Shown in pieces: positions 9,198 to 64,000 of a stretch of 64,000 nucleotides of DNA. The position numbers and the translations under genes were made by a program. The stretch's first letter is position 1, and each line of letters starts with the position of its first letter. Location of the stretch: the IMG/VR virus record IMGVR_UViG_3300047168_000120, positions 31,521 through 95,520 of that record; one strand, 5' to 3'. The notes under the pieces were generated by a model. That model worked only from the letters and a program-made list of their open reading frames with translations, was not told where the DNA came from and did no database searches. Origin of the DNA: a virus.

Positions 9198-10342
9198 GCG
9201 ACCGCGAGACACCATGGTTCAAATTTTACCCCTCTGATTGGCAGGCAGATACCAACCTTGGAACCTGCAGTCTCGGGGCCCGCGGGCTGTGGATGGAGCT
9301 CTTATCCATCATGCACAAGTCGGAAAGATACGGTTTTTTGCTCATTTCTGACTCAAAACCGAGCATAAAACAGCTCGCTTTTGTGTGCAGAACTGAGCCA
9401 AAAAATGTCGAAAAATATCTCCAAGAATTGCGCAAATTTGGGGTTTTGTCTGAAACAGCCGATGGAATAATATTCTCCCGCCGAATGGTAAAGGATCGGG
9501 AGGGAAGCTCCATTTTGTCTGATGCCGGGTCGACCGGTGGCAACCCTAACATTCGGCGCGGAACCGTACGAAAAGACCTTCGAAAACGCTCCTACAGACG
9601 CTCAGACGCACCGGCAAAAACGAAAAGAATATTTGAAAAAACAGAAGGTTGTTGCATATGGTGCGGCGTCCATCTCGATGAAAATGGCGAAGGTCAAAAC
9701 GCCTTCCAGATCGACTATATAAAGCCGGTTTGCGACGGCGGTAATCACGATGAAAGCAACCTGGTTCCCTCATGCGGGGACTGCAAAAATTCGCGGTCAA
9801 TTGGAAAAAATTTCTATAAAAAGCCATTTAGGCCGGAGTGGCGGATATACGTTCCGACCGATTCCGACGTTAACGTCGGACGCGATTCCGACACTAAGCC
9901 CGACCATAAGCCCCATATACCAGAGACCAGAGACCAGAAAGAAAGAGTTCCGATTCCTTCGGAATCGGCGCCGGCGCTGCCGGCGCTCCCTGGGGTGATC
10001 ATCGATGTGCGCACCCAGCTTTTCCGGGACGGCCTGGAAATCCTGCGGCGCCTCACCGGCAAATCGGAGGGCGCCTGCCGGACTTTCCTGGGCAAGCTGC
10101 TCAGGGAGGCCGGCGACGACTGCGAGCTGGCGCTGCGCAAGCTGCGCGAGGCGGCCGAAACGCCTCCAGCCGACCCGGGAGCTTGGCTCATGGCCGCGGT
10201 CAAAAAAGGTTCGGTTCCGAAAAAAAGCGCAAAAACCGAGGCGATGGAAAAAATTTCCGCGAGGCTTGACGCGGGTGGCAAAAACACACAAAGATGTGTT
10301 TTGACCATCGACGGCGAAGCGGAGCGGGAACTGGATGTTTAA
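9194..10342 (+). CDS. Replication initiator-like protein with embedded HNH domain
   Basis: 382 aa. The N-terminus (PWFKFYPSDWQAD, then CSLGARGLWMELL) is the winged-helix start typical of phage replication initiation proteins (DUF1376-like). Residues about 150-200 form an HNH endonuclease module: CxxC, then IDYIKPVCDGGN, then NLVPSCGDCKNSR. The first catalytic His of the usual DH pair is Tyr here, so cleavage activity may be lost. The C-terminal part resembles helicase-loader-like segments. Overlaps both neighbours, in operon with dnaB. An operator-like palindrome lies in its 3' end (10284-10299). Confidence 0.8.
   Translation: MSDRETPWFKFYPSDWQADTNLGTCSLGARGLWMELLSIMHKSERYGFLLISDSKPSIKQLAFVCRTEPKNVEKYLQELRKFGVLSETADGIIFSRRMVKDREGSSILSDAGSTGGNPNIRRGTVRKDLRKRSYRRSDAPAKTKRIFEKTEGCCIWCGVHLDENGEGQNAFQIDYIKPVCDGGNHDESNLVPSCGDCKNSRSIGKNFYKKPFRPEWRIYVPTDSDVNVGRDSDTKPDHKPHIPETRDQKERVPIPSESAPALPALPGVIIDVRTQLFRDGLEILRRLTGKSEGACRTFLGKLLREAGDDCELALRKLREAAETPPADPGAWLMAAVKKGSVPKKSAKTEAMEKISARLDAGGKNTQRCVLTIDGEAERELDV
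10284..10299. promoter_or_regulatory. Operator-like palindrome inside a gene end
   Basis: Core ACACAC-AAAG-ATGTGT within the last codons of the initiator-like gene, 36 bp before the next start at 10335. One of few copies in coding sequence. Confidence 0.6.
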
Positions 10343-17051: not shown

Positions 17052-17421
17052 GCTGCCGGCCGTTACGCGCTTGCTACCCAAAATGCCGGTGCCGGCAGCA
17101 AACCAACGCCGGCTTCGGCCGGCCCGCGCGGCCCGTTATAGTTTGCCATCCGATAGCAAGATGCCGCGCGGTTTAAATTCGGCCCGTTCTCATTCATTCC
17201 CGGCCTGTGTTTTAGTGATGCCCCAGGAGATCGAGCCGGGGGAATGCGAGGGGTCGAGCCTGCGGCCGAAAAGGGAGTGTTTTCCCCAAGCTGCAATGCC
17301 GCAGGTATTTTTCAGCTCAGCGGGCCATCAAATCGACGACAACCGCAGATGCCTTGCCACACTGCGCTGCGGGGGCGCGGCCAACACCCAGGCGCCTTCC
17401 ATCAGCATCGCGCCGCGCCCC
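17052..17421 (+). ncRNA. Stem-loop array I (6 units with 30-nt loops)
   Basis: Six units: 17052-17099, 17124-17171, 17195-17246, 17259-17305 (31-nt loop), 17318-17369 (interrupted stem) and 17372-17421. Arms of 8-10 nt are complementary within a unit but differ between units (for example GCTGCCGGC/GCCGGCAGC, GGGGCGCGGC/GCCGCGCCCC). Each loop begins with C and has G at position 13 and CC at 18-19, leaving 11 variable nt on each side of the core GN4CC. Units 1 and 2 are separated by a UUCG-capped hairpin (17108-17123). The last unit is followed by GTTTTTTT, so it may also terminate the transcript. No protein-like coding here. Confidence 0.8.
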
Positions 17422-17489
17422 GTTTTTTTCCCAGCCCAAGGATCCATGAAATGAACCCACCATACGATTCCGGCCTTGCGCCGGGTGAC

Positions 17490-18048
17490 GCCGCGGCCGG
17501 CCATGGTCTAATTGATAACCAGCAGAGCCCTGCAGGCCGCGGCAAACCTCTTCCGCCGCGGCGCTCCGGTGCCAAAGCGGTGCGCGGCCCGCGAAAAGGA
17601 GAAACCCAAAGGAGATCTGCCGCGCAGAATTCCGCATCAGATCCGACGCCCGATTCCGGCTCGCAACCCGCAATGAGAATGGCGCCGGATCTGGCTGCTG
17701 CCGGCCATAAACAATCTGAAGCCCCAGGGTTTCGCGCCGGCAGCAGCAAACCTATGTCTCCCGGTGCCAGGGTTGAAGCGAAATCCGATGGCTTACTGCG
17801 CCGGGACGACGAGGGTGCCGCCCAGCATTTACTTGCTCACCAACTAGCAGATGGCGGCGCCCCACCCATTAAGCGCCGCGGCCGCCCGCCCGGTGCCGCG
17901 AAATCCGCCAGAAATGGCGGCGAGGCCACCCCTCAAGAGCATGCAGCCCAAAATGGTCATGGCGGCCTCGAAGATTCCGGCGCCTGCGCCGGCGAGGAGG
18001 TTGGCCAAGATCATGACGAAAACCAATATCTAATAGCCGGCCTCCCCG
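17490..18048 (+). ncRNA. Stem-loop array II (8 units with 30-nt loops)
   Basis: Units at 17490-17543, 17581-17626, 17639-17692, 17694-17747, 17759-17806, 17814-17861, 17921-17970 and 17993-18048, all with exactly 30-nt loops obeying C1, G13, C18, C19; arms 8-13 bp. Mispairs in arms are G-U at 17765/17800, 17816/17859, 18001/18040 and 18002/18039, plus four single mismatches. A shorter irregular unit (17881-17921) and GAAA- or CCTG-capped hairpins (17906-17921, 17977-17992) lie between. An open reading frame from ATG 17451 runs through the whole array into the next gene, but its translation here is low-complexity and the RNA structure explains the sequence better. Confidence 0.8.
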
Positions 18049-18053
18049 AGCTT

Positions 18054-18914
18054 TTGACCGTCGATCGCGCTTCCCGCGCCCAGAAGCGCGCGCTTGCGGT
18101 GCGGATCGCCGCAATGGACCTGCCGACGGTGATTGACGGGCTGGTCAGCCTGCACCGAGAGCACCGGGCCTTGCAGCGCGCCGTGGGCGATATGACGCGG
18201 CGCATCAAGGCGGACGAGAAATGGGCGGCCCATGCGCGCCATGTACGCGATGGCATCGAAATCCCGGCGGGTAAGATGGCCGTCCCGAACGATGACGACG
18301 CAGCGTTCATCAAGACGCTGCGACACCGCCTTTATACGGGGCGTGCCGCTCTGGAGGCGCTGCGCAAGCAGGTGCAGGCCGAGCAGCTCATGCTGGTGAC
18401 CCGCCTGCCGGTCTATGACTGGGCACTTAGCATTCGTGGCTTCGGGCTGGCCAGCCTGGCGGCCATCGTGGGCGAAGCCGGCGATATAGGGAAATACGGC
18501 AATCCGGCGAAATTCTGGAAGCGGATGGGCTTGGCCGTGATCGACGGCGAGCGGCAGCGCAAGGTTGCCGGAAATCCCGAGCTTGCGGAGCGGCATGGCT
18601 TCCGGCCGCAGCGCCGCGCCGAGGTGCATGTGATCGGGGAAAACCTAATCCGGCAGAAAAGCCCCGGCTACTACGAGCTGTATGTCGCGCGCAAGGAATA
18701 CGAGCAGACCCGGCCGGACCCGGTGCCGTATTTGATCGTCGCGCACAAGCGGGCGCTTCGCTATGTCGAGAAGCGGCTGCTGAAGAAACTCTGGTCGGCC
18801 TGGCGCGTCGGTACGGGCGTCGCCGGCGCTGAGCCGGAGGGGGCTGAGACCGGAGTGTTGGTGATGCCCAATGAGGACTTGTCTCAGCCTCAACCAGAAA
18901 TGAGCCTGTCGTGA
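18054..18914 (+). CDS. IS110 C-terminal-domain / Tas-like RNA-associated protein
   Basis: About 286 aa if started at TTG 18054 (ATG 18114 is also possible; the frame is open from ATG 17451 through array II). A helical, coiled-coil-like region is followed by WALSIRGFGLASLAAIVGEA then GDIGKYGNPAKFWKRMGLAV, the pattern of the Transposase_20 domain of IS110 transposases (GxG helix-hairpin core, then GL). The DEDD RuvC-like domain of IS110 is absent and no SG catalytic serine motif follows, so it is not an active transposase. Nop-only Tas proteins (TasA) of phage TIGR systems have this kind of make-up. Flanked on both sides by stem-loop arrays, it probably binds their RNAs. Ends AHKRALRYVEKRLLKKLW... 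Confidence 0.72.
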   Translation: MTVDRASRAQKRALAVRIAAMDLPTVIDGLVSLHREHRALQRAVGDMTRRIKADEKWAAHARHVRDGIEIPAGKMAVPNDDDAAFIKTLRHRLYTGRAALEALRKQVQAEQLMLVTRLPVYDWALSIRGFGLASLAAIVGEAGDIGKYGNPAKFWKRMGLAVIDGERQRKVAGNPELAERHGFRPQRRAEVHVIGENLIRQKSPGYYELYVARKEYEQTRPDPVPYLIVAHKRALRYVEKRLLKKLWSAWRVGTGVAGAEPEGAETGVLVMPNEDLSQPQPEMSLS

Positions 18915-20330: not shown

Positions 20331-21061
20331 AATTTTTGCTGTTTGAACCGCCCGCCAATGTTCCTTCCGCGCAAACCGCGCTCAGCTTTGAAAAAGACGT
20401 TGTTGAAAGATGTACAGACGTTATCGATCTTGTCCACTTCGTTGAGACCTGGCCATATGATGCGATCATCCTGAACGTGCCGAACTTCCTGCCATACCAG
20501 GATCGATTCAAAAAGTTGGCGATATCTGGTGACCATGTCACCTTCGTTCTGAGCGATTTGCTGCCACAGGAAGAGCTTTTGGTGTTGCGCTCCGGCGGTA
20601 TTTATCTGAATCGGTACAACATGATTGAGGCTGGACGCGAGTTTCAATCGTTTATGCTTTTGACGGTCCGGAATATTGTGAATTTGCGTCGCAATGCCGT
20701 TCCATCGGTTAAGCATTTCGGCGCCGTGAAAATCGATTTCAATGCGCGCCGCGTATCGGTCAATGAAACCAAGATATGCTTTACCAAAAAAGAATATCTC
20801 ATCTTTGAAATGTTGTGCCTTCGCGCAGGCCGTGCGTTCAGTAAAGAGAACATCATCGATCAGATTTATGGAGCGCGCGAAGATGCGCCAGGTGCGAAGA
20901 TCGTGGACGTCTTTATCTGCAAAATCAGGAATAAGCTCGAAGAAGCGGGTGCTGGCAAAGTCATTCGGACGATCTGGGGCACCGGTTATATTATCGATTT
21001 ACCAGCGCCGGATGAGGTTGTGGCGGAAGAGTCGCCTCGTCTTCTAGCGGTGGCGACCTAA
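20327..21061 (+). CDS. CtrA-like response regulator with degenerate receiver
   Basis: 244 aa. The C-terminal OmpR/PhoB winged helix (residues about 130-228) is strikingly CtrA-like: CFTKKEYLIFEMLCLR, then KIVDVFICKIRNKLEEAG, then IRTIWGTGYII. The N-terminal receiver is present in length but its acidic pocket IEDD is FEPP, and the phospho-Asp position reads IILNVPN, so it cannot be phosphorylated normally. CtrA silences replication and drives cell-cycle genes in alphaproteobacteria; this copy may act constitutively on host or phage promoters. Start overlaps the upstream stop as ATGA. Confidence 0.85.
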   Translation: MKFLLFEPPANVPSAQTALSFEKDVVERCTDVIDLVHFVETWPYDAIILNVPNFLPYQDRFKKLAISGDHVTFVLSDLLPQEELLVLRSGGIYLNRYNMIEAGREFQSFMLLTVRNIVNLRRNAVPSVKHFGAVKIDFNARRVSVNETKICFTKKEYLIFEMLCLRAGRAFSKENIIDQIYGAREDAPGAKIVDVFICKIRNKLEEAGAGKVIRTIWGTGYIIDLPAPDEVVAEESPRLLAVAT

Positions 21062-21080
21062 GCCTTTCAAATTCCGGGGA

Positions 21081-22679
21081 ATGTTTCAGGACGATCTACT
21101 TAGCGCCACGAGCATATCCTGGCTGGCGTCTCCATCGGCGCTCATTGAATTAGACCGAGAGCTCGTGCGGCGCGGTGGCCTGCGCGCCTTCGTGGAACTG
21201 GCCTGGCACATCATCGAGCCGGCCGCCACCTTCCGCCCGAATTGGCACATCGATGAGATGTGCATCGAGCTGGAGCGCATCGTCGCCGGTCAAAATCGAC
21301 GCCTGGCCATGGCGATCCCGCCGCGGCACGGCAAGAGCTCTATTCTGGCGGTTTTCTTCCCGGCGTATGTCTGGATCAAGAACCCGGCGCGCCGCATGAT
21401 GTTCATCAGCTATGATTTCGATCTCTCGATGCGCGACAGCAAGAGAACGCGAGAGCTGATCAACAGCCAGTGGTTCCAGGAGCGCTGGGGCCATATTTTC
21501 CAGCTCAAGACGGATAACGTCAAAATCCTGGAGACCAATAAGACGGGCTACCGGGAATGCGCTTCTGTCGGCGGCCGCATCATGGGTAAGGGTGCTGACA
21601 TCATCTGCGTGGACGATCCGCACGATACCAAGGACGTGGAATCCGAGGTCAAACGCGCCGTCGTGCTGCTTTATTGGCGCGAGCGCGTTCAGAGCCGCCT
21701 CAACGATCCGAAGACCGGATCCTTTGTCGTGTGCCACCAGCGCGTTGGCGAAAACGACCTGATCGGCGACATTTTGAAGCGGCAGAAGGGGCAATATGTC
21801 TATTTGCGCCTGGCGGTAAAATTCGACCCGAAACATCTGCATAACTGGCCGCGCGATCCGCGCACCGACGCCGGCGAGCTGCTTTGGGCTGATCATATGC
21901 CTCAACCGGTCATCGACGAGTTTGAGACCAATCTGGGTTCCTACGCCTTCGCTGCTCAGTTTCAGCAGCTGCCGGGCCCGCGCGAAGGCGGCATGTTCAA
22001 GGCGCACTGGTTCACGAAGATCAGCAAGAAGGAATTGCCGGGCGACATCGAATATTGCCGCGGCTGGGATTTCGCGGCGACGCTGGCGACGATGGTCAAG
22101 GCGGACCCGGATTACACGGCCACCGTGCTGATCGGGCACAGCCGCACCACGAAGAAATGGTACATCGCGCATGCGGAACGCTGGCGCGTGGAGATGGGCG
22201 AGGTCGACAGGATCCTGGTTGCCAAGGCGCAAAATGACCCCAAAGGGACCCGTGTGCGGCTTCCCCAGGATCCCGGCGCGGCCGGGAAAGGCATGGTGCA
22301 GCATCACGGCAAGCTGCTTGCGGGTTATTCTTTCATGGCTGAGCCGGTGACCGGTGATAAGGCACAGAACGCAGCGCCGCTGGCGGGGCAGGCCATGGTC
22401 GGGAACGTCATGATGGTTGAGGGGGATTGGAACGACGATTATTTGGCTGAGATGGCAGGATTTCCGACAGCCTCCCATGATGACTGGGTCGATGCCTCGA
22501 GCCAGGCATACAAAGGGTTCATGAAATCCACCTCAGGCATCATGGATTACTATTCGCGGATGCTCGAGGAAGAGAAGGCCAAGGCCCTCGACGTGAAGCC
22601 GCTGGACGGTTCGACCATCGAGACCACGCAGGATATGGGGAAAGCCTATTCGACGCAGCCCGCATCAAAAACCACATAG
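21081..22679 (+). CDS. terL: Terminase large subunit
   Basis: 532 aa. Walker A IPPRHGKSS (residues about 79-87) and Walker B IICVDDPHD (about 173-181) mark the packaging ATPase; the C-terminal nuclease domain has YCRGWDFAAT and HDDWVDASSQA acidic motifs. Cuts and translocates phage DNA into proheads through the portal. Twenty bases separate it from the CtrA-like gene; its C-terminal tail reaches into an operator-like palindrome (22672-22687). Confidence 0.95.
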   Translation: MFQDDLLSATSISWLASPSALIELDRELVRRGGLRAFVELAWHIIEPAATFRPNWHIDEMCIELERIVAGQNRRLAMAIPPRHGKSSILAVFFPAYVWIKNPARRMMFISYDFDLSMRDSKRTRELINSQWFQERWGHIFQLKTDNVKILETNKTGYRECASVGGRIMGKGADIICVDDPHDTKDVESEVKRAVVLLYWRERVQSRLNDPKTGSFVVCHQRVGENDLIGDILKRQKGQYVYLRLAVKFDPKHLHNWPRDPRTDAGELLWADHMPQPVIDEFETNLGSYAFAAQFQQLPGPREGGMFKAHWFTKISKKELPGDIEYCRGWDFAATLATMVKADPDYTATVLIGHSRTTKKWYIAHAERWRVEMGEVDRILVAKAQNDPKGTRVRLPQDPGAAGKGMVQHHGKLLAGYSFMAEPVTGDKAQNAAPLAGQAMVGNVMMVEGDWNDDYLAEMAGFPTASHDDWVDASSQAYKGFMKSTSGIMDYYSRMLEEEKAKALDVKPLDGSTIETTQDMGKAYSTQPASKTT

Positions 22680-26421: not shown

Positions 26422-28392
26422 ATGAGCTCAACCACCTTCGATGCCTCACACCATCCCCGTGGCGACCATGGCCGGTTCGCTTCGGCGCGCGGAAGGGCTG
26501 CGATCATCAATGCGGTGCCGGCGGTGCGGTATCACACCGGGCCGAGCCTGGGCGCGCCGCGGCTGGCCGAGCGATCACCTGGCCCGGGGATTGAGCGGCG
26601 CAGCCTGACGCGGGGCGAGGCGTGGCAGCGCATCGGCAATAAAATCAATGCTTTGCCGGTGCATTATACGGGCGAGAAGACGATGGAACGTCCCGTCGGC
26701 ACCTATCTGCACCTGACGCTCGATAGCCAGATCCCGAAGACGATGTCCGTGCAGGATCATCAGGCGCGGGTGAAGCGCTTCATCCAGTTGGCCAAGGACA
26801 AGCGCAAGGAGATCATGGATGGCGCCGAGAAAGCGCGCGTCGGCAAGAAGCACGTCTATCTCAAGGCGTCAGAGCCGGCGAGCGGCGGCGTGGATCGCTG
26901 GCGCATGAAGCCGGACAAATATCCGGAAGGCACTTCGAAGGCGACGCTGCACCGGGCGTACAACCATGCCGCGCTGCTGGCGATGCATGATCGCGGCTTG
27001 GCGGATTACGACTTCAAGATGGATGACGCGCTGAAGGACGAGCTGAAGCCGACCGAGCCATTCATTCGATATGCGCGGCAACGCCTTAATAATGAAGCAG
27101 ATATCGCCATGCAGGGTGAGCGCCGGCCATACGTCCAGGCGTTCGGCAAGCCGTTCGCGGATCTGCGCACGGACAAAACCACCGGCGAGGTAAGGCGCCG
27201 CCTGCGGCCAAACCAGCAGCTGATCAAGGCAGCACCGCGGCTGAAGGCGGCCGGCTTGATGCTGATGCACGGTCCCAGCGATTCCCCCAAGATTCTCTTG
27301 CTGAAGCGCGCCAGTGGTGGTGATCACCAGGGCGAATGGTGCTTCCCAGGCGGCAAGATCGAGCCCGGCGAGACGCCGCGCCAGGCCGCAATCCGGGAAA
27401 CGCGGGAAGAAATCGGCCCGGTTGCGCATGGTCGTCCCCAGATGTGGGCGCGGCGCATCGCCGGCGGGGTGGATTTTACAACCTTCGCGGCCCGCGTCCC
27501 GACAGCCTATGAGCCGGTGCTGAACGACGAGCATTCCGACTGGAAATGGGCGAGCCCCGATGATCTGCCCAGCCCAATGCATCCCGGCTGCGCGGTCGCG
27601 ATCGACAAGCTCGCGCATCGGTCGAAAGGTATGGTGCTGGGGAAAGCCTCACCTTTCGGCGGGTTTCGTCAGGCGGTACGCAACGGCATGGCGCGCGCGG
27701 CGACGAGCCTGGATTCCGCCTTCGCGCCAGAGGCCGCTTCCCGCAGTGTTTTCGAAAGGGTGAATGGATTATCTGAAAAGGTGCGGCAATTCACCGGCTC
27801 CAAAGCGCCGCACACCACCGGCTTTTCGGCATACACAGCGGGACGCTGGACGGCGAGCAACGCAAGGGCGTTATTCCGCCAACCGGTTCAAACTGGCAAA
27901 AAGTTTGTGAGGCATAGCGCGCAAATCGGTGCTGGTTTCGGGCATGGCATATCTGATGAATTTGGCGGTTCCCCGCGGACGCGCCGCGTCGCCGGCCGGA
28001 TTGGCGCGGCTGTGGGGGCTATCAAATTGCCGGTGGTGGCCGGCGCCATCGCCGCGAAGCCGATCTCGATGGCCTATCACGAATTTGGCGGCGGGGCTGA
28101 CAATCAGCCCAAAAACCAGTCAGCCAAACTCGCAAAGTCTTTTGACGAAACCAAGCATCGGCGCAGCCATACGGGCGAATTCATCGCTGGCGCGGCCGCC
28201 GTTGCGGGAACGGGGGGCGCTATCGCGGCTGCCCCTGTAGTGGACAGGCACGTCAAAGCGCTGGGCCGGAAACGATATCGCCGAGACGTTAAAGCGCTGA
28301 AAGCGGCCGGCGGCCAGGTAATGTATCGCGGAGCGCCTGCACCCGACCCCAAACCAATCCAAGCCAAATCTAGCCAATATCTGCTAAAATGA
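26422..28392 (+). CDS. Large head-module protein with internal Nudix hydrolase domain
   Basis: 656 aa. N-terminus contains HPRGDHGRFASA, a motif that recurs in other head proteins here. Residues about 280-400 form a complete Nudix domain: GEWCFPGGKIEPGET plus RETREEIG fits GX5EX7REUXEEXGU, so it probably hydrolyses a nucleoside diphosphate derivative. The C-terminal third has Gly/Ala-rich hydrophobic stretches (AGAAAVAGTGGAIAAAPVV) and a second R(S)HTGEF motif. Lies between the portal and Mu F-like genes, overlapping the latter by 4 nt; perhaps a virion-internal enzyme. Confidence 0.75.
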   Translation: MSSTTFDASHHPRGDHGRFASARGRAAIINAVPAVRYHTGPSLGAPRLAERSPGPGIERRSLTRGEAWQRIGNKINALPVHYTGEKTMERPVGTYLHLTLDSQIPKTMSVQDHQARVKRFIQLAKDKRKEIMDGAEKARVGKKHVYLKASEPASGGVDRWRMKPDKYPEGTSKATLHRAYNHAALLAMHDRGLADYDFKMDDALKDELKPTEPFIRYARQRLNNEADIAMQGERRPYVQAFGKPFADLRTDKTTGEVRRRLRPNQQLIKAAPRLKAAGLMLMHGPSDSPKILLLKRASGGDHQGEWCFPGGKIEPGETPRQAAIRETREEIGPVAHGRPQMWARRIAGGVDFTTFAARVPTAYEPVLNDEHSDWKWASPDDLPSPMHPGCAVAIDKLAHRSKGMVLGKASPFGGFRQAVRNGMARAATSLDSAFAPEAASRSVFERVNGLSEKVRQFTGSKAPHTTGFSAYTAGRWTASNARALFRQPVQTGKKFVRHSAQIGAGFGHGISDEFGGSPRTRRVAGRIGAAVGAIKLPVVAGAIAAKPISMAYHEFGGGADNQPKNQSAKLAKSFDETKHRRSHTGEFIAGAAAVAGTGGAIAAAPVVDRHVKALGRKRYRRDVKALKAAGGQVMYRGAPAPDPKPIQAKSSQYLLK

Positions 28393-32179: not shown

Positions 32180-32854
32180 GTGGATTTCGGCCAGGCTCTC
32201 CATTTTCTCCGGAACGGCAAACGCGTCGCGCGCGCAGGCTGGAACGGCCAGAACATGTTCCTTTTGTTGGTGCCGGGCAGCACGTTCAAGGTGAATCGCC
32301 CACCGCTGCTCGGTATTTATCAGGAACCCTTCCGTGGTCCGCATCTGGAAGAGCTTATCGATATGAAGACGGCGCAGGGGTATGTGGTTCCCTGGCTGGC
32401 TTCGCAGTCTGACCTGCTGACGGATGACTGGGTCGAAGTTACCGATGAAACGGCCAAGCCAGAGCCTGCCGCGTCATCGGGGAACGAAATTCCCGCCTAT
32501 TGCGATGAAGAGCTGCAACTTCTGGCAGGTTACGATGAGCACTGGAGCGGCACCGAGTTGCATGGCAAGATCACGCCACTCTCGGGCCAAGATATGCCGC
32601 AGCCGACCAATCTTGCCAGCGGTGGCATAATTGACGGCAGCACATCGGCGTTGCTGGGCGAGACGCCTCATCCAAGTCCTGATATGCGGATCGGTGTTAA
32701 TTGCGATACCAGATATTACACGCAAAACGGTATGTTGGTGAACGACTCAGTCGTTTCGTACGAAGAGGCCAATACCGCGAAATTAGCTCACGAAAGCGGT
32801 CAACCTTTACCGCCGGGTTGGAGTTTCATTCCGGCCGCTCAGGATCCCACCTGA
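32180..32854 (+). CDS. tad2: Tad2-like (DUF2829) anti-Thoeris protein with C-terminal extension
   Basis: 224 aa from GTG 32180 (AAAGGCGG upstream). Residues 1-90 carry the full DUF2829 signature: DFGQALHFLRNGKRVARAGW, NMFLLLVPGSTFKVNRPPLL, then DMKTAQGYVVPWLASQSDLL and DDWVEV. Tad2 proteins are phage sponges that bind cyclic ADP-ribose signal molecules and block Thoeris (and some CBASS) defence. The 130-residue extension is unusual and unrecognised. Located in the accessory block, fitting an anti-defence role. Confidence 0.85.
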   Translation: MDFGQALHFLRNGKRVARAGWNGQNMFLLLVPGSTFKVNRPPLLGIYQEPFRGPHLEELIDMKTAQGYVVPWLASQSDLLTDDWVEVTDETAKPEPAASSGNEIPAYCDEELQLLAGYDEHWSGTELHGKITPLSGQDMPQPTNLASGGIIDGSTSALLGETPHPSPDMRIGVNCDTRYYTQNGMLVNDSVVSYEEANTAKLAHESGQPLPPGWSFIPAAQDPT

Positions 32855-34252: not shown

Positions 34253-34325
34253 TGCGGGGTAGCGCAGTTGGTAGAGCGTCGGAGTCATAATCCGAAGGTC
34301 ATTGGTTCAAATCCAATTCCCGCAA
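34253..34325 (+). tRNA. tRNA with CAU anticodon (Met or Ile-lysidine type)
   Basis: Acceptor TGCGGGG pairs with TCCCGCA; D arm GCGC...GCGT; anticodon stem TCGGA/TCCGA with loop GTCATAA (anticodon CAT); T arm TTGGT-TCAAATC-CAATT-like; discriminator A. No encoded CCA. Whether it is elongator Met or AUA-reading Ile depends on modification and identity bases I cannot settle. Confidence 0.9.
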
Positions 34326-63600: not shown

Positions 63601-64000
63601 CAGCAGACGGGAAATACAGCGATTCAGGCGGTCAGCTCGGCTGTGACCGTAGCGTCGCAAACCCTCACGCTGAATTCGCCTGGCAGCAGCGGTACGGCTG
63701 GAACGGCAATACCGCTTTCTGGTACGGTTTCCCCGAGCGGCACCGGAGTCCAGGTGCAGCTCGGCACGAGTGCCACCGTTGCACCAACCGGATCGTGGAC
63801 CGCCGCAGCGATATCCGGCACCAGCTGGACGGCGTCTCTCACGCCATCTTCTGCCGGCACCTATTACGTTTGGGCTGAGGTGACGTCGAATACAGCTGTG
63901 CAGCAGATCAGCAGCGCGATTACGGTTGTGTCTGGCCCAACCGGCCTTACATGGACGCTGATCGGCGGTACTGGCACTGGCGCCATTACCTCGATGACGA
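60637..64000 (+). CDS. Tail-terminator-like domain in frame with a tail fibre (open at window edge)
   Basis: Open for at least 1121 codons with no stop. Residues 1-140 (MYDVVVDALDTYFQAQLAAL ... WMTVPVSVYWV) look like a DUF4128-type tail terminator. At 61087 a new ATG has CGGAGGATAAT before it, so a separate fibre protein probably starts there in the same frame. It has a collagen-like GPAGPPG, a right-handed beta-helix-like region (61.4-62.5 kb) and Ig-like repeats of about 85 residues near the end (TSATVAPTxxW, GTYYxWA). Receptor-binding fibre is likely. Confidence 0.75.
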   Translation, partial: MYDVVVDALDTYFQAQLAALANPLDVAWEGVAYRPSASKPYLRIKVSGYVRTPAGVGADCVNVESGAYTVSVVYPVGSGRGAASGIAQQIAEMFPRGMSLELAGQAPLIIINATAAPAMTEGAWMTVPVSVYWVTTETAVLSSVTVSEDNMIYDFASAPADSVGSNGDYYINTTSTGFFGPKTNGVWPDTPLFYMQGPAGPPGTSSSNRFLTSSYSSVQATFAAALASSGNAYVYSAPGAYSETTAITATLGSYSLTFDGDEETAFTFQNGISGFAFSLENELQSVSVKGMSIISATPQSSPPAGAAISILSPGFTSGALPKTTKISSVQILGQWANGIVLQGVPDVVGNGIVISFPNANSTSVGISITGNTDAGIATKYGFTDCVIANGGGTAVNIGNDIQGVNFKNLVTYGQQYGIVWTNTTVAGDLLQVADSNMEAHQVLGLQGTSSAPLYNIQIADSTFNTAALTSGVPFILLNYCTTVTLSGNIFSPGVSGATISFTNCVNLSIVGGQLQCATLNLTGGNNYHFSNVNFNVATIQGAATNSKYDGCSFATATVFTGTGDSPIISGCKFAALPDFTAINPVLSNNYFAGVLYVSGAPASCLSGSYVPGAQQLVAATPQYYAQFDGGTNATLQVLTNVSNLIVETVNPTEIILPPAPTMANTGIQDLVITFAAANSAISWALGTGTQSFAGPTLPTTVVAGQQIVLRWIQFTNSWLNVSSSAGGSSITNDPQQTTMALTDFLGASIGGVDAKITPQAFFAALGAPVSGLSTGAASSAGDEILTLQSGSLVVNSMSEMWTGYFAVQATAQFQPVVNLSGNTVLDSSVHNNRKLVANTSLTLTPDAFASVGNGFSCTLIADTGATVTFGSGFTVYGGGTTLAPGQTAFINAFTDSASNNVVNVAIVGSGGSITGNGLSVSTLSTNYTPGSSISIVGSVGPANTPVQVAIGTSATVAPTSGWVSATVSGTNFAASITEATAGTYYIWAQQTGNTAIQAVSSAVTVASQTLTLNSPGSSGTAGTAIPLSGTVSPSGTGVQVQLGTSATVAPTGSWTAAAISGTSWTASLTPSSAGTYYVWAEVTSNTAVQQISSAITVVSGPTGLTWTLIGGTGTGAITSMT

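Follow-up and report, generated by a model that had tools for sequence, protein, structure and literature searches.

The open reading frame at positions 32180..32854 (plus strand) of the analysed window is an unusual variant of the known phage counter-defence family Tad2, in which a conserved loop has been swapped and a long orphan acidic tail follows the family domain. The window is the whole stretch of DNA studied here, 64,000 nucleotides, and corresponds to positions 31521-95520 of the 95,520-bp virus record of a tailed phage (95.5 kb). The replaced loop is a more informative oddity than the tail, and it was absent from the first-pass annotation of this DNA. The reading that we prefer, at about even chances, is that of a Tad2-family nucleotide sponge whose ligand-side loop is altered and whose acidic tail is mostly flexible, as sequence comparison and structural modelling suggest.

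The frame itself was confirmed in the sequence and is real: it starts with GTG and comprises 224 codons followed by a stop. The GTG is in register with the relatives, most of which open M-[DNS]-F-[GS] at the equivalent point. The stop of the previous ORF lies 3 nt before the GTG and the ATG of the next ORF 3 nt past the stop; thus, there is no space for a separate gene in the extension.

The N-terminal domain belongs to the Tad2 family

Residues 1-88 (32180..32443, plus strand) constitute a Tad2-like (PF11195/DUF2829) domain according to Pfam, PDB sequences and fold. The complete DUF2829 domain proposed for the N-terminus was recovered, since the whole PF11195 model was matched (residues 1-87 against profile positions 1-73 of 73; E 5e-22; 78.7 bits, with a cut-off of 25). 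Among PDB sequences, the matches were ModTad2 (E 1.4e-13), SPO1 Tad2 (1e-12), AcrIIA7/HgmTad2 (1.8e-12) and SptTad2 (9e-12), and solved Tad2s were the only relatives below E 0.01. In the AlphaFold2 model, built from 29 aligned sequences, the block pLDDT of residues 1-90 was 82-97, and a fold search with predicted residues 1-88 gave Z values of 9.2-10.2 to ten solved Tad2 entries. The next-best match was the phage 812 neck protein (Z 5.7), a middling value without sequence support (rmsd 3.2 over 70 residues, 17% identity); all remaining matches had Z values of 3.7 or less. Moreover, all 11 invariant columns defined on 23 aligned sequences, three solved Tad2s among them, are kept (R18, G20, W21, N22, G23, M26, W72, S75, D78, D83 and W84). 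Membership of the Tad2 family is therefore well supported by sequence and predicted fold.

The top match to a characterised protein, in sequence (E 1.4e-13) as well as fold (Z 10.2), was ModTad2 from a Myroides odoratus prophage (PDB 9eib, 8v3e; His-ADPR), which, unlike the window protein, is tailless at 88-89 aa. SPO1 Tad2 (gp34.65; PDB 8sme, 8smf, 8smg, 8wje) has the same fold (Z 9.5-9.9, 42-43% structural-alignment identity) and has the WNG and W..SQ.D.L..DW segments in common with the window protein, although it is a tailless protein of about 90 aa whose sequence from beta2 to KTA differs. HgmTad2/AcrIIA7 and SptTad2 (PDB 8kbi-8kbm, 8wjd) also share the fold (Z 9.2-9.8) and, like the window protein, carry an insertion between beta2 and the last strands; this insertion binds cGG, whereas its counterpart in the window protein is overwritten by a 41-bp copy.

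Relatives in viral contigs are mostly single-domain, with domain identity of up to about 72%. Thus, the expectation that known Tad2 proteins usually consist of the first domain only was borne out: only 4 of 119 distinct relatives extend more than 12 aa past the domain, the longest tail being 67 aa. The architecture of a Tad2 domain with a long tail is nevertheless not unique. It is shared by the Tybeckvirus (Lactobacillus-group) phages ENFP1 (228 aa) and 521B (229 aa), in which an N-terminal Tad2-like domain is likewise followed by a long C-terminal tail, although the ENFP1 tail is unrelated in sequence to that of the window protein (blastp E 3.7) and no loop patch is known from either phage. 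Proteins of phrog_1048/phrog_872, e.g., phiAH14a p64, are likewise multi-domain Tad2-like phage proteins, but with the opposite order, the extra domain being N-terminal and Tad2 C-terminal. Five relatives were found in contigs of bacteria, chiefly alphaproteobacteria (Phenylobacterium, Xanthobacter, Hyphomicrobiales), which suggests an alphaproteobacterial host for the phage. One alphaproteobacterial MAG contig (L148:5001-5733) holds two different nearby Tad2-like genes, which are 42% and 64% identical to the query. In the Vibrio phages PQ247121.1, PV501192.1 and OK625546.1, Tad2-like matches lie inside genes annotated as methionyl-tRNA synthetase, labels that probably reflect misannotation or fusion.

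A 41-bp copy replaces the conserved loop

In the alignment, the relatives have Y-PEGTxxxYHAH-I-DMKTAQG where the window protein has Y-QEPFRGPHLEEL-I-DMKTAQG. The 91 relatives in which the loop is readable all retain EGTxxxYxxH or differ from it slightly; when the viral contig relatives were used as a clade test for EGTxxxYxxH before I/V-D-M-K, the window protein was found to have QEPFRGPHLEEL instead. An initial search of the phage's own record had returned a short second match at record 9934-10002. Within it lies one copy of a perfect 41-bp direct repeat, TCAGGAACCCTTCCGTGGTCCGCATCTGGAAGAGCTTATCG, at record 9957-9997; the other copy, at record 63840-63880 (window 32320..32360, plus strand), overwrites the EGTxxxYxxH loop (codons 48-60). 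The patch extends from the third base of Y47 through the first base of D61, which is exactly the aberrant stretch, and comprises 13 codons where the relatives have 12, with the reading frame maintained. The record contains no longer exact repeat except one of 127 bp at its start. A compensated double frameshift had been considered as the source of the odd loop and was abandoned on discovery of the copy. A diversity-generating retroelement was also set aside, as the repeat is perfect and a crude scan of long frames for YxDD-type motifs, weaker than a search for reverse transcriptase, returned one FADD only.

Another question is whether the patch could be a false join in a metagenomic contig. 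In favour of such an artefact, the patch is a perfect 41-bp repeat and the tad2 copy is represented by one assembly: a second contig (L166), which matches the record exactly in the 8,935 bp that were read, contains the RHH copy described below but no full tad2 match. However, the patch has tad2 sequence on either side, which one false join could not produce. In addition, the record opens with an exact 127-bp repeat (record 1-127 and 1997-2123; L064), probably an assembly end at k=127, and 127-mers would span the 41-bp repeat. For these two reasons misassembly is unlikely as the source of the patch, and we consider the artefact explanation as a whole extremely improbable.

The copied segment lies antisense to a small RHH-like gene

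The copy at record 9957-9997 sits antisense to the codons of a 62-aa ORF (MVLKNDKLFQMRTTEGFLKRVDDWRRMQDDLPSRAEAIRRLIEIGL...; L064:9823-10011 in record coordinates, minus strand, outside the window) which, judged by its sequence, looks like a ribbon-helix-helix (RHH) regulator, although no match was found in Pfam. In viral contigs, 30 related loci were confirmed, one of them the same phage, and the relatives that were read retain a form of FQMR....L..IDDWRRxQxDLPSRAEAIRRL. Since the RHH-like gene conforms to its family at the patch site and tad2 does not, the former is the putative donor and the latter the recipient. In the proposed scenario, a short copying event templated antisense to the RHH-like gene would have replaced the Y47-D61 stretch; the exchange of 36 bp for 39 bp would be consistent with short template switching or with micro-homology recombination. 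No apt precedent for a template-switch patch of this kind in phages was located in the literature. Over 41 nt, the transcripts of tad2 and the RHH gene would be perfectly complementary, which makes cross-regulation conceivable.

The C-terminal extension is an orphan acidic tail

The domain is followed by an orphan acidic extension of 136 aa (residues 89-224; 32444..32851, plus strand), characterised by the lack of relatives, pLDDT, composition and codon usage. The first-pass annotation had described about 130 acidic, NxS/T-rich residues forming an extra domain. The length is close to the 136 residues found, which have no family match, and the acidic character is evident (20 D/E against 5 K/R), but a single sequon against 0.97 expected does not amount to enrichment. 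"Domain" is too strong a term as well: residues 101-180 are predicted to be disordered (AlphaFold2 pLDDT below 50), and the block means for residues 181-220 are 52-82. A small strand-helix module at residues 181-219 (32720..32836, plus strand) is possible on the basis of pLDDT but doubtful; when the last 64 residues were folded alone, pLDDT was 51-67 and no confident fold resulted.

The extension is likely translated, since its frame outscores the other five for coding, a stop-free extension arises in 0.35% of shuffles, and codon usage is phage-like in residues 89-155 (p 0.003); in residues 156-224 it is not (p 0.24). The proposal to look for the extension in other phages yielded no homologue (tblastn, best E 4), and plasmids gave nothing either (tblastn, best E 7). 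There was no pattern match in viral contigs, no confirmed match in bacterial genome contigs and no homologue in HMM libraries or PDB sequences. At the DNA level, phages and 385 genomes (class of G001) produced short chance-level matches only, and comparison with the rest of the same phage indicated that the extension is not a copy from elsewhere in it. A match to PCSK9_C2 (E 0.016-0.1) was under the cut-off of that model and was dismissed as chance. With no homologues, mostly predicted disorder and no partner evidence, the earlier idea that the tail widens the ligand range or binds a defence component finds no support. Rather than a second ligand pocket, the tail would more likely be a passenger, a tether or a partner-binding segment, and it may end in a small module.

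Genomic context

Upstream of the tad2-like gene lie genes for a terminase, a portal protein, a NUDIX-containing protein and a Mu-F head protein, and this position downstream of head genes suits a late or structural role equally. We therefore considered a role of this DUF2829 clade in the late structural module, with the tail serving the particle or its assembly. Such a role would agree with the terminase, portal and Mu-F genes upstream, with several relatives that adjoin genes for portal, terminase, head-tail adaptor or internal virion proteins, with the location of phiAH14a p64 between head morphogenesis and major capsid genes, and with the Z of 5.7 to the phage 812 neck protein. The fold and sequence matches to characterised sponges are, however, far stronger, and the neighbours of relatives also include replication genes, each family being found in few of 100 neighbours (an uncontrolled count). 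A virion or morphogenesis protein is retained as a rival because the neighbours are often packaging or structural genes, but we judge it unlikely.

Several other features were observed in the window. The NUDIX domain (residues 272-391; phrog_1198, E 3e-22) belongs to a 656-aa ORF at 26422-28392, between the portal and Mu-F genes, and is thus embedded in a long protein of the head region. A tRNA-Met (CAT) gene is located at 34253-34325, downstream of the cluster to which tad2 belongs. A 585-aa frame at 17157-18911 has a transposase-like match (phrog_4285, E 4e-11). A clear terminase is encoded at 21048-22676, and a minus-strand 583-aa frame at 41149-42897 matches a second terminase-like family (phrog_2666, E 3e-22).

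Possible ligand and function

The gcADPR pocket of Tad2 is formed by the beta1-beta2, beta3-beta4 and beta4-alpha3 loops, beta4 and alpha3 of paired protomers, whereas cyclic dinucleotides are bound in the insertion between beta2 and beta5 (PMC12043709). The first-pass annotation had named loss of conserved ligand-pocket residues as evidence against its anti-Thoeris interpretation, and the alignment gives a divided answer: the EGTxxxYxxH loop of the clade is gone, but the pocket-loop segments WNG (residues 21-23, beta1-beta2), KTAQG (63-67, beta3-beta4) and PWLASQSDLL (71-80, after beta4) are intact, their placement in the pocket following from alignment and the review's description rather than from coordinates. 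With these segments intact and the patch in the region of the dinucleotide insertion, an ADP-ribose-type pocket is possible next to a changed neighbouring site. Tad2 ligands vary, being gcADPR for SPO1 Tad2 and His-ADPR for MoTad2 (PMC13299392); owing to these differences within the family, one ligand is not assignable to the window protein. When four Tad2 proteins were set against the Panoptes system, a slight effect was seen with SptTad2 (PMC12657218).

For the sponge reading, we infer anti-Thoeris activity from the family resemblance of the sequence. The N-terminal domain, modelled here as a monomer, would assemble like other Tad2s, and a TIR-derived messenger, presumably of the ADP-ribose type, would be sequestered in the pocket between protomers. 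A working Tad2 sponge is expected to be a tetramer that takes up and releases gcADPR, His-ADPR or a cyclic dinucleotide, and to shield the phage against Thoeris or CBASS. Because the patch falls in the area of the insertion with which some Tad2s bind cyclic dinucleotides, it probably altered or narrowed the ligand range. All close relatives conserve the stretch that was replaced, so the loss of the loop may even abolish binding. This raises the alternative of a degenerating sponge, in which ligand binding was destroyed by the patch and a tail of read-through sequence is tolerated under weak selection. The loss of a motif kept by relatives, the codons of residues 156-224, which are unlike those of the phage, and an orphan, mostly disordered tail are in line with such decay. 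However, the frame is preserved and stop-free, the invariant core residues are all there, and domain identity to relatives reaches 72%; we therefore hold degeneration to be credible but rather unlikely. It is highly unlikely, in our estimation, that the sponge was retargeted in one step by the 41-bp copy and, with the separate gain of the orphan tail, acquired a new ligand or partner.

The survival of a phage in the face of signalling-based immunity depends in part on sponge proteins, and ligand range varies among homologues. A natural Tad2 with a whole invariant core and one loop swapped in a single traceable event would be a ready-made test of loop function, and the tail raises the question of whether sponges acquire functions by fusion. 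An inactive protein would mark a loss of counter-defence.

Other repeats in the record

Two further exact repeats, each of 29 bp, were observed. The partly palindromic AGAAAAACACATTAAGATGTGTTTTGCAA occurs as an inverted repeat at record 27784 and 47968 (the latter near window 16448) and is possibly a regulatory site. The direct repeat CATGTTTTTCTCCTCATGGCGCCACAATG occurs at record 34106 and 37209 (near window 2586 and 5689); shorter repeats related to it have TTTCTCCTCATG in common and perhaps represent a translation-start region that recurs on the minus strand.
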